Shown: positions 16,001-61,380 of the stretch, piece after piece | How the letters are laid out: each line of letters starts with the position of its first letter | Numbering within the stretch: position 1 is the stretch's first letter | DNA from: Microvirga roseola | Lineage (GTDB): Bacteria > Pseudomonadota > Alphaproteobacteria > Rhizobiales > Beijerinckiaceae | Assembly (NCBI RefSeq): GCF_020866965.1 | Contig: NZ_JAJATX010000002.1 | Coordinates: 1-64,000, forward strand | Direction: 5' to 3' | DNA: 64,000 nucleotides | The notes under the pieces: model-generated | Databases searched by the model: none | Told to the model about the DNA's origin: nothing | What the model saw: the letters and a program-made list of their open reading frames with translations, nothing else | Position numbers and translations under genes: made by a program

Positions 16001-16894
16001 ATGAATACGCCCCTCGTCTTCGACCGCTCCCTCCTTCGCCGCCGCCTGTCCCGGGCGCTCAGCCAGGGCTATGCCGACTTTCTCCTCACCCGTGTGGTGG
16101 AGGATCTGGAGGAGCGCCTCTCCACGGTGGTGCGGTCCTTTCCGCTGGCACTCGATGTCGGAACGCCCACCGCCGCCGCCGTCGAGGCCCTGCGCCGGAG
16201 CGGGCGAGCCGAGGAGGTGGTCCGCCTGTCGCCGGTTCCGGAGCCGGGGAACATCATGGGCGATGAGGAGCGCCTGCCTTTCGCGGGCGGGCAATTCGAC
16301 CTCGCGATCTCCGTTCTCGCGCTCCAGGGGGTGAACGACCTTCCCGGCGCGCTCGTCCAGATCCGCCGCGCCCTGAAGCCCGACGGGCTGTTCATCGCGG
16401 CTCTGCTCGGCGGTGCGACCCTCACCGAGCTGCGCCAGTCCTTCACCCAGGCCGAGGCGGAGCTTGAGGGCGGGGTGAGCCCGCGTGTCGCGCCCTTCGC
16501 GGACCTGCGCGACATCGGCGGCCTGCTCCAGCGGGCGGGCTTCGCCCTGCCGGTGACGGATTCGGAGGCCTTGAGGGTGCGCTACGCCACGCCCTTTGCC
16601 CTGATGCAGGACCTGCGCCGGATGGGCCTGACCAATGCCCTCAACGACCGCCGCAAAGCCCCCTTGAGACGCGCGACGCTGATGCGGGCAGCCGAAATCT
16701 ATGCCGAGCGCTTCGCCGATCCGGACGGGCGCATCCCGGCGACCTTCGAGATCGTCTGGCTCTCCGGCTGGACCCCCCATGAAAGCCAGCAGAAGCCCCT
16801 GCGCCCTGGTTCGGCCAAGATGCGCCTGGCGGATGCGCTTGGCGTGAAGGAAGGGGAGACGCCGCCCAGTCCCGAGGACGGCCAATCTTCCTGA
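16001..16894 (+). CDS. NDUFAF5/BioC-like SAM-dependent methyltransferase-fold protein
   Basis: A 297-residue class I methyltransferase-fold protein. It starts with LVFDRSLLRRRLSRAL (5-20), the FDRxLxRxR segment typical of NDUFAF5, a mitochondrial complex I assembly factor that hydroxylates an arginine. Further elements are ALDVGTPTAAA near 50, FDLAISVLALQGVNDLPGAL near 100, and LKPDGLFIAALLGG. The glycine-rich SAM motif is not canonical. The ATG at 16001 is chosen because the homologous region starts there; an in-frame ATG at 15896 would add 35 residues with no similarity and abut the divergent comF start. A role in complex I maturation is inferred from family membership only. Confidence 0.8.
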   Translation: MNTPLVFDRSLLRRRLSRALSQGYADFLLTRVVEDLEERLSTVVRSFPLALDVGTPTAAAVEALRRSGRAEEVVRLSPVPEPGNIMGDEERLPFAGGQFDLAISVLALQGVNDLPGALVQIRRALKPDGLFIAALLGGATLTELRQSFTQAEAELEGGVSPRVAPFADLRDIGGLLQRAGFALPVTDSEALRVRYATPFALMQDLRRMGLTNALNDRRKAPLRRATLMRAAEIYAERFADPDGRIPATFEIVWLSGWTPHESQQKPLRPGSAKMRLADALGVKEGETPPSPEDGQSS

Positions 16895-59981: not shown

Positions 59982-60052
59982 AGCTGTTCAAGGAGCCGGG
60001 GCGCTGCTAATCCGGCTTGTCGCCCCGCATCGAGGGCTCTTGTCCGGTTGTC

Positions 60053-61168
60053 ATGAGATCAGAACAGATTCCCCTTTCGCCGCTTGCTCCGGGAGTAGGC
60101 CTGTCGCTGCTGGTCCAGCGCTTCGGTCAGCCGCGAGCCCGTCCCCAGGTCTATGTCCAGGCCTCGCTCCATGCCGACGAGATCCCCGGCATGATCACGG
60201 CCCATCATCTGCGCGAGCGCCTGTCGAGGCTCGAGGCGGAGGGCAGGATCAAGGGCGAGATCGTCCTCGTGCCCTCCGCCAATCCCATCGGCCTCGCCCA
60301 GAAGGTGCTGGGAGATCACATCGGCCGCTTCAACCTCGCGGACGGCGTCAATTTCAACCGGGGCTATCCCGACCTGACGCCGAAGGCGGCCGAGCGCATC
60401 GAGGGCAGGCTGACGGGCGAGGGCGAGGCGAATGTCCGCCTGATCCGGGAGGCCCTGCAGGCCGAGCTCGAGGCCTGGGAGACCTCCAATCCCGCCGAGG
60501 TCATGAAGAAGGCGCTGCTCCGGCTGGCGCTGGACGCAGACATCGTGCTCGATCTCCACTGCGACTCGGAAGCGGTGGCGCATCTCTATACCCACACCCG
60601 CTCGGCGGACGAGTTCGCGCCCCTCTCGGCGCTGCTGGGCGCTCACGCCTATCTCCTGGCCGATGTCTCCGGCGACGAACCGTTCGACGAGGCCTGCAGC
60701 CGTCCCTGGGCGGAGCTGGCCGACCGCTTTCCGGACAAGCCCATCCCCTTCGGCTGCCACTCCACCACCCTCGAGTTCCGGGGCGAGCGGGATGTAAGCC
60801 ATGAACTGGCGCAGGCCGATGCGGCAGCTCTGGTCGACTATATGATCCTGCGCGGCGTTGTTGCGGGGGATGCGCCCACGGTGCCCAAGGCGCTCTGTCA
60901 GCCCACCGAACTCGCGGCTTCCGAGCCGGTCACGTCTCCCGCTTCCGGGATCGTGGTGTTCAGGGCCGATGTGGGGGCCCGGGTGAGGGCGGGTGACCCG
61001 ATCGCCGATGTCGTCGACCCGCATACGGGCGCCACGGTTCAGGCCAAGGCCCCTTGCGACGGCGTCATGTTCGCCCGGCTCTCGCAGCGTTTCGCGATTG
61101 AGGGGCAGCGTCTTGCCAAGGTGGCCGGGTTCACGGCCAGGCTGACGGGCAAGCTCCTGAGCGCTTGA
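60053..61168 (+). CDS. Succinylglutamate desuccinylase/aspartoacylase family protein
   Basis: A 371-residue zinc carboxypeptidase-fold amidohydrolase. The zinc ligands are in SLHADEIPGM (His40, Glu43) and in DLHCDSEAVAHLY near 165-177. The NPIGLAQKVL and FNRGYPDL segments line the active site. The C-terminal 80 residues form a lipoyl-like beta domain (SGIVVFRADVGARVRAGDPI), common in this branch. The natural substrate is an N-acyl amino acid of unknown kind. The ATG at 60053 is preferred to an in-frame TTG at 60017. Confidence 0.88.
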   Translation: MRSEQIPLSPLAPGVGLSLLVQRFGQPRARPQVYVQASLHADEIPGMITAHHLRERLSRLEAEGRIKGEIVLVPSANPIGLAQKVLGDHIGRFNLADGVNFNRGYPDLTPKAAERIEGRLTGEGEANVRLIREALQAELEAWETSNPAEVMKKALLRLALDADIVLDLHCDSEAVAHLYTHTRSADEFAPLSALLGAHAYLLADVSGDEPFDEACSRPWAELADRFPDKPIPFGCHSTTLEFRGERDVSHELAQADAAALVDYMILRGVVAGDAPTVPKALCQPTELAASEPVTSPASGIVVFRADVGARVRAGDPIADVVDPHTGATVQAKAPCDGVMFARLSQRFAIEGQRLAKVAGFTARLTGKLLSA

Positions 61169-61189
61169 GGATCAGGCAAAAAGACAAAA

Positions 61190-61217
61190 AGAAAGGCCGC
61201 CTTGAGGGCGGCCTTTC
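61190..61217 (-). terminator. Strand-specific terminator for the minus-strand peptide gene
   Basis: A 10-bp stem AAAGGCCGCC (61192-61201) pairs with GGCGGCCTTT (61207-61216). On the minus strand it is followed by CTTTTTGTCTTTTT, a strong U-tract. On the plus strand only TTTCC follows, so it works best for transcripts from the minus strand, although no conventional gene lies on that strand here. Confidence 0.85.
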
Positions 61218-61261
61218 CATTGTCGGGTCCACGGCCCCTGAGGAGCCGGCCATTTCGTGCG

Positions 61262-61336
61262 TTACGCACCAATCTCGGCAGAGGCCAAGATCCAGGTCAC
61301 GGCAACCGGGGACCGTAGGGTATGACAATGAGACAC
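61262..61336 (-). CDS. 24-residue peptide gene with an extended Shine-Dalgarno sequence
   Basis: The frame starts with GTG at 61336 and encodes 24 residues (MSHCHTLRSPVAVTWILA, then SAEIGA) ending in TAA. Directly upstream, at 61352-61337, lies GAAAGGAGGTGATCCA. With the following G it is complementary to the 3' tail of 16S rRNA over 16-17 nt, and GGAGG is 7 nt from the GTG. A strong terminator for this strand lies 45 bp past the stop. Frame, ribosome site and terminator together suggest a real small gene. The peptide has one Cys, two His and a short hydrophobic segment; its function is unknown. It is divergent from prfC. Confidence 0.6.
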   Translation of the reverse strand: MSHCHTLRSPVAVTWILASAEIGA

Positions 61337-61352
61337 TGGATCACCTCCTTTC
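61337..61352 (-). promoter_or_regulatory. Extended Shine-Dalgarno sequence of the 24-residue peptide
   Basis: The minus strand reads GAAAGGAGGTGATCCA. The plus strand is therefore identical to the end of 16S rRNA, CTGGATCACCTCCTTTC. Ordinary ribosome sites in this window match only 4-7 nt. Confidence 0.75.
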
Positions 61353-61368
61353 GTTGTTGACGGGAAAC

Positions 61369-61380
61369 CCCCATATGGGG
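61369..61380. repeat. Palindrome CCCCATATGGGG between the peptide gene and prfC
   Basis: A 12-bp perfect palindrome 17 nt upstream of the extended Shine-Dalgarno sequence on the minus strand. It might be a promoter-proximal operator or a hairpin in the peptide-gene leader. Confidence 0.4.

Follow-up and report, generated by a model that had tools for sequence, protein, structure and literature searches.

A small RNA locus of Microvirga roseola with an extended 16S rRNA complement and a short frame conserved in its limits across Alphaproteobacteria

Why would a bacterial genome carry, in front of a reading frame of only 24 codons, a perfect 17-nt complement of the 3' end of its own 16S rRNA? 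The question is raised by a locus on the minus strand of a 64,000-nucleotide stretch of the Microvirga roseola genome, referred to below as the window. The original prediction, made from the letters of this stretch, had described an extreme Shine-Dalgarno (SD) sequence at ideal distance from a GTG start, followed by a terminator and preceded by a palindrome. It had offered three readings of the locus, namely a leader peptide, a highly translated micro-protein and an RNA that titrates ribosomes.

The locus forms a compact unit on the minus strand (about 61180-61362), composed of a CAAC-bearing 5' tail, the 17-nt SD element, the GTG frame, a structured region and a terminator (Table 1). The SD element, the 24-codon frame and the 7-nt spacing between the GGAGG core and the GTG are all there as predicted, and so is the minus-strand terminator with its U tract. 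CAAC immediately 5' of the SD element is frequent across the family loci listed, part of which had been pre-selected by a named-contig scan whose pattern required CAAC and RTG. The palindrome CCCCATATGGGG also exists, and its value as a functional hint did not hold: it is found in two loci of the same genus (L058 and L176) and missing from a third (L049), for which reason a conserved operator was rejected. Possibly it belongs to the promoter region. A simple sigma-70 scan returned no promoter upstream of the RNA, and an alignment of upstream stretches gave weak signals.

Table 1. Features of the locus, in coordinates of the window
Feature	Position	Strand	Basis or remark
Palindrome CCCCATATGGGG	61369..61380	.	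upstream of the RNA
Transcript span, putative	~61182-61362	-	both ends inferred
Full-length match to RF01867 (CC2171)	61193..61359	-	cmscan, 80.1 bits against a gathering threshold of 75
CAACAAC in the 5' tail	61353..61359	-	sequence
Extended Shine-Dalgarno element GAAAGGAGGTGATCCAG	61336..61352	-	perfect complement of the 16S 3' end
24-codon frame, GTG start (61334-61336), TAA stop (61262-61264)	61262..61336	-	encodes MSHCHTLRSPVAVTWILASAEIGA
5' arm of the long-range stem, CATTGTC, codons 3-5	61324..61330	-	Rfam structure, RNAalifold group consensus, swap test
CTGGATCTTGGCCTCTG in the frame, possible internal copy of the 16S tail (suggestive)	61279..61295	-	group mean z -0.66, not significant
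3' arm of the long-range stem, GACAATG, directly before the terminator	61218..61224	-	Rfam structure, RNAalifold consensus, swap test
Intrinsic terminator, 12-pair stem 61190-61218 and U-rich tail	61180..61218	-	sequence

The match to the ribosomal RNA is exact. On the plus strand, CTGGATCACCTCCTTTC (61336-61352) reproduces the genome's own 16S 3' end, which in antisense reads agaaaggaggtgatccagccgc (L207). The string GGATCACCTCCTTT has two copies in the 5.08-Mb draft assembly, that 16S gene and this locus, and the 15-mer TGGATCACCTCCTTT finds this site as its single exact match within the 64-kb window. In a duplex scan of both strands of the window against the 16S tail, with scoring restricted to 17-nt windows containing GG, the element ranked first among 97,821 with -31.0 kcal/mol, the next distinct site reaching -25.0 kcal/mol. 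A chance origin of the 17-base match, held to be very unlikely from the start, was rejected on the strength of the single 15-mer match, the two assembly copies and the top duplex energy. The runner-up of the scan is CCGAGGAGGTGGTCCGC, at 16207-16229 on the plus strand (-25.0 kcal/mol).

The complement is maintained in relatives. A pattern free of the SD element (CAAC, 16-30 bases of any kind, TGTCTCATTGTC) was searched in the 119 genomes of the window's family and gave 41 distinct places in 40 of them, and the SD element was present in all 41. Across these places all seven changes at positions 1-13 of AAAGGAGGTGATCC are A to G, by which a G-U pair with the 16S rRNA is kept; at position 14, C is changed four times to T with pairing kept, twice to A and once to G. 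On this comparison of genomes, the 16S complement is conserved beyond need. Because the match stops one base short of the CTTTCT that closes the conserved tail, leaving TAAGGATGG beyond it unmatched, the pairing target looks like mature 16S rRNA rather than its precursor.

The extent of this conservation also bears on a very unlikely reading, that of a base-pairing regulator or sponge, in which the SD element would bind sRNAs with CCUCC loops, or the freed site before the terminator would bind target mRNAs. Anti-Shine-Dalgarno sRNAs are described in Caulobacter (SisA-D, in the accessible part of PMC12559287) and in Sinorhizobium (in the accessible part of PMC3927594), but conservation extends over the complete 16S tail, with both GATCCAG and the GAAA that leads it, and exceeds what a CCUCC loop needs.

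The locus belongs to a family that already has a name. A cmscan of the window returned, as its sole match at the gathering threshold, RF01867 ('caulobacter sRNA CC2171'), aligned over model positions 1-159 of 159, and both arms of the consensus stem CAUUGUC/GACAAUG align without marked mismatches. The full-length match, the 5' element and the long-range stem of the consensus are thus shared with RF01867; what differs is that Rfam types the family as an sRNA gene, in whose description a conserved reading frame is absent. At E 0.001 or better, RF01867 was found in 70 of the 119 genomes of the window's family, 30 of them above the cut-off. It matched 85 of 385 genomes of the class, 14 above the cut-off, and all seven probe loci of other types below it (24.3-72.7 bits, E up to 0.33; 28.3-37.6 bits for those with 14- and 18-residue frames), weak matches that in both scans may rest largely on the 16S-like element. 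At the gathering threshold, none of the 13 loci of one set, mostly of MSSE type, was matched.

A second set of known RNAs resembles the locus from the side of translation. Hahn and colleagues reportedly described, in RNA Biol in 2017, rreB of Bradyrhizobiaceae and rreR of the Rhodobacter/Roseobacter lineage as small mRNAs with an extended Shine-Dalgarno sequence. Like the locus, they are reported to be small RNAs with a terminator, a very short frame, a GTG start and 17 nt complementary to the 16S 3' end. The rre type is said to be recognised by a 16S complement of at least 16 nt (17 nt here), a frame at SD distance (7 nt and 24 codons here), a small monocistronic transcript (here a terminator is present and the promoter scan was negative), 30S association, a transcript stability that depends on the start codon, and the same peptide (14 aa in rreB, 18 aa in rreR), in place of which the locus has 24 residues of an MSHC type. 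Peptide and sequence past the first codons being wholly distinct, the locus is, as judged from its layout and peptide, a sister lineage of the rre type and not rreB or rreR itself. The 14-residue Bradyrhizobium and 18-residue Rhodobacterales types met in this study are, by length and lineage, presumably rreB and rreR. A literature search, with most subscription papers outside its reach, found no paper joining RF01867 to rreB or rreR. As far as the accessible accounts go, rnTrpL/peTrpL of Sinorhizobium meliloti is comparable, being a small regulatory alphaproteobacterial RNA in which a short frame is translated; it differs in being leaderless and in arising from attenuation of a downstream gene, whereas the locus has an extended SD and no conserved downstream gene.

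Pattern searches delimit the spread of such RNAs. Of 199 genomes of the order, 95 contain the pattern RAAGGAGGTGRTCNNRTG, three of them twice, and four contain a reversed control pattern. A stricter pattern was found in 54 of 398 genomes of the phylum, that is in 54 of 135 of the same class and in none of the 263 others. At least 118 stretches on named contigs, which measure spread and not frequency, all bore alphaproteobacterial labels except one labelled 'Proteobacteria bacterium' and one metagenome-assembled genome (MAG) with a Candidatus Kuenenia label; they include Rhizobiales, Caulobacterales, Rhodobacterales, Sphingomonadales, Rhodospirillaceae and Acetobacteraceae. The contig that bears the name Candidatus Kuenenia stuttgartiensis (CALQFM020000040.1, L197) is identical with L015, a contig of 36,432 bases whose genome is placed in the window's class, which points to a mislabelled MAG. 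Among the named records compared, the nearest, Microvirga arabica (L176), has the same peptide, a near-identical upstream region and homologues of both neighbours.

After removal of exact duplicates, 210 loci were grouped by peptide motif: MSHC (20-27 codons, once 31), MSSE/MSSD (20-26), MSRxxLERGVGT (18), MSHGSA (18, once 20), MSxxKRCHLAGIAR (14, once 17) and a mixed rest of 41. Some of the loci (L160 with 59 codons, L180 with 36) may be chance matches, and another (L096) is cut by the locus end. Removal of near-identical members, applied within the five groups only, left 194 loci. Sphingomonad loci include both MSHC and MSHGSA types. One genome has two such RNAs, L021 (G012:C1:805104-805255) and a second at G012:C1:2921849-2922077, the 5' motif of which resembles the sphingomonad MSHGSA type.

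Seven matches were also obtained from IMG/VR. Five contain the Bradyrhizobium-type frame (L229, L230, L231, L234, L235), one an MSHC-like frame of 33 codons (L233), and one of seven codons looks like a chance match (L232). A viral gene was considered and rejected, as these matches look like host sequence at prophage edges. On two of the viral contigs (L234 and L235) the Bradyrhizobium-type RNA lies about 300 nt downstream of a gene judged by eye to be integrase-like, at the end of the prophage contig. Near L136 and L184 a tRNA gene stands a few hundred bases from the RNA and is a likely integration site.

Conservation in relatives is where the frame and the peptide part ways. A scan for the start codon with GAAAGGAGGTGATCCAGTGTC, two mismatches allowed, in 289 genomes of the class gave 54 places in 53 of them, and a start codon is kept in all 54 (23 GTG, 27 ATG, 4 TTG), the pattern itself including GTG. 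In 189 of the 194 loci the frame meets its first stop within codons 13-27, against a mean of 52.6 and a maximum of 72 loci when the letters 3' of codon 5 are shuffled, and in the two alternative frames a stop falls there in 19-20% of the same loci. In three types of nearly fixed length the stop codon alternates between TAA, TAG and TGA at fixed positions.

These results weigh on the reading of the locus as a purely non-coding RNA, which would pair with the 16S tail and block or titrate 30S subunits, the frame being incidental. It would account for the conservation of the entire 16S complement and for the RNA-level conservation and structure. Rfam treats such RNAs as untranslated, as does, for Caulobacter ncRNAs generally, the accessible part of PMC4117421, where ribosome profiling is stated to find most ncRNAs from intergenic regions not translated. 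This general statement would count against a translated frame if the CC2171 RNA is one of those meant. An incidental frame sits badly, in turn, with a start that varies only among ATG, GTG and TTG, with a stop that varies among TAA, TAG and TGA at fixed positions, and with a frame length held far beyond the shuffles and the two other frames, and we regard the purely non-coding reading as unlikely.

The original prediction had looked to conservation of the frame in related genomes: start, stop and length are indeed conserved far beyond the genus, but the peptide sequence is not. From same-length pairs at 2-35% divergence, pN/pS was 0.99 (0.88-1.17) in the MSHC group, to which the window belongs, and 0.87 (0.77-0.96) in the Rhodobacterales group, slightly but significantly below 1. 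The three remaining types gave 1.36 (0.95-1.99), 1.20 (0.99-1.58) and 1.77 (1.03-4.09). The same procedure on segments of four neighbouring genes gave medians of 0.11, 0.31, 0.29 and 0.18, with no segment above 0.59. Purifying selection on the peptide was thus undetected in the five frame types (0.87-1.77 against control medians of 0.11-0.31), with the proviso that synonymous sites are held by RNA structure as well, an effect that could hide weak selection on the peptide. Codon choice is all but fixed across families, with Ser as TCT in 70 of 70, His as CAT in 70 of 70, Cys as TGT in 66 of 70 and Thr as ACC in 35 of 35. Within the sequences compared, selection acts on the letters of the RNA and on start and stop, and none is detected on the peptide.

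The micro-protein option, an ordinary small mRNA whose strong SD would give a high output of a functional 24-residue product, fared poorly on this evidence and is rather improbable. It can draw on the conserved start, stop and frame length and, among the loci listed, on residues that recur within each lineage, such as MSHC and TW. Against it stand the pN/pS values near 1 in five groups, far from those of the controls, the frozen codons used by the recurrent residues, and the unrelated peptides carried by lineages with the same RNA layout. A Pfam search with the 24-residue peptide gave no match up to E 1. Furthermore, the accessible part of PMC7217052 lists as unstructured a 14-residue peptide of Bradyrhizobium japonicum and an 18-residue peptide of Dinoroseobacter shibae, which we infer to be the rreB and rreR products and which would speak against a functional micro-protein. 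That the frame is kept while the peptide changes suggests that translation itself, rather than the peptide, is what matters.

The genomic surroundings bear on the remaining option of the three. The plus-strand neighbour is prfC, as had been pointed out, and it diverges about 95 nt upstream of the RNA. The link to translation that this adjacency had suggested is not conserved: prfC was detected in five of 202 loci, three in the window's genus or near it (L001, L058, L176) and two in a different genus belonging to the same family (L037, L045). Neighbouring genes were taken from a crude call of ORFs of at least 80 aa, and the loci differed in length, some being truncated where a contig stopped. 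On this basis the downstream gene lies on the opposite strand in 104 loci and on the same strand in 78, and was not found in 20; the largest neighbour family common to the loci comprises 13 of the 202. The reading of the locus as a leader peptide or attenuator acting on a nearby gene, prfC for instance, could appeal to the order of a short frame followed by a terminator and to the nearness of the divergent gene. Since a terminator closes the unit, neither the neighbours nor the downstream strand is conserved, and no conserved co-directional downstream gene was found across the 202 loci, it is improbable that the RNA acts as a leader or has a particular connection with RF3, and the leader reading, already contradicted by these counts, is almost certainly wrong. 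The convergent neighbour (60017-61168, plus strand) encodes a protein whose catalytic domain is of the AstE/AspA type (E 1.5e-14) and whose C-terminus gives a weak HlyD_3-like match, below the cut-off.

Folding adds a structural layer to the conserved frame. The RNA of the window is more stable than 200 of 200 dinucleotide shuffles (z -4.55). The stem joining CATTGTC in codons 3-5 to GACAATG is part of the Rfam structure and of the RNAalifold consensus of MSHC-type RNAs, built from 45 of 78 loci; it is missing from the best predicted fold of the window RNA and present in those of two relatives (L049 and L058). A terminator was located in 139 of the 210 loci, and the 127 distinct ones entered a swap test, in which pairing energy averaged -10.8 kcal/mol with the own partner, -9.46 with partners of the same type and -6.05 with those of other types. 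The own partner beats the other-type mean in 116 of 127 loci, by which codons 3-6 co-vary with the site before the terminator; the Bradyrhizobium type gave no signal (own better in three of six).

In the consensus fold of the Bradyrhizobium type, the SD core is predicted to pair with TCACCTC within the frame, and in that of the Rhodobacterales type with a site that contains CTCC and precedes the terminator; both sites are predicted copies of the 16S tail inside the RNA. For the window's group, the candidate internal copy (61295-61279) found no support in energy (mean z -0.66, 9% of loci with p<0.05), and in the MSHGSA group 0% of loci were significant by energy.

Taken at its most specific, the locus is on balance probably a member of a set of self-contained small alphaproteobacterial transcripts, of the RF01867 or rre type, for which translation is the output and the peptide a by-product. 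It is most likely a ribosome-responsive RNA. Free 30S subunits would have an exceptional affinity for the 5' tail, and a ribosome traversing the short frame would open the long-range stem that joins the frame start to the terminator region; in some lineages its passage would also open an internal copy of the 16S tail able to mask the SD element. The shape, lifetime or accessibility of the RNA would then vary with the number of free ribosomes available. The act of translation would be the output, in the manner of a gauge of ribosome availability or a titrator of 30S subunits, and the benefit to the cell may lie in gauging, in buffering, or in control exerted by the freed 3' part. Among the three options first proposed, an RNA that engages ribosomes fits best, and a sensing or titrating role is something that we only infer.

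Hahn and colleagues are said to have found that rreB associates with 30S subunits, that its translation is weak and hindered by the extended SD, and that the transcript becomes stabler once its start codon is replaced by a stop. Such findings would fit a ribosome-responsive RNA better than a high-yield micro-protein.

A wider reading is put forward tentatively, as possible rather than probable. Many Alphaproteobacteria may keep one or two such RNAs that bind the free 30S tail more tightly than any other mRNA-like ligand, and the 'non-coding' family RF01867, rreB, rreR and at least three further lineages may form one class-wide ribosome-sensing system, in which translating a neutral frame of fixed length would switch RNA structure or lifetime and thereby report or buffer ribosome availability.

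What this analysis adds is a link between RF01867 and the rre type, a view of how widely such RNAs occur in the class, and evidence that the frame is kept for translation rather than for its peptide. The case also carries a warning, in that a 'non-coding' annotation can conceal conserved frames and a conserved frame need not imply a functional peptide. If the reading is true, an Rfam sRNA family and a little-followed report on small mRNAs would be parts of one RNA system found in several orders of Alphaproteobacteria. Nature would thereby supply a clear example of a frame maintained because it is translated, whatever it encodes, and the system would open a direct way into the question of how bacteria might sense or buffer free 30S subunits.
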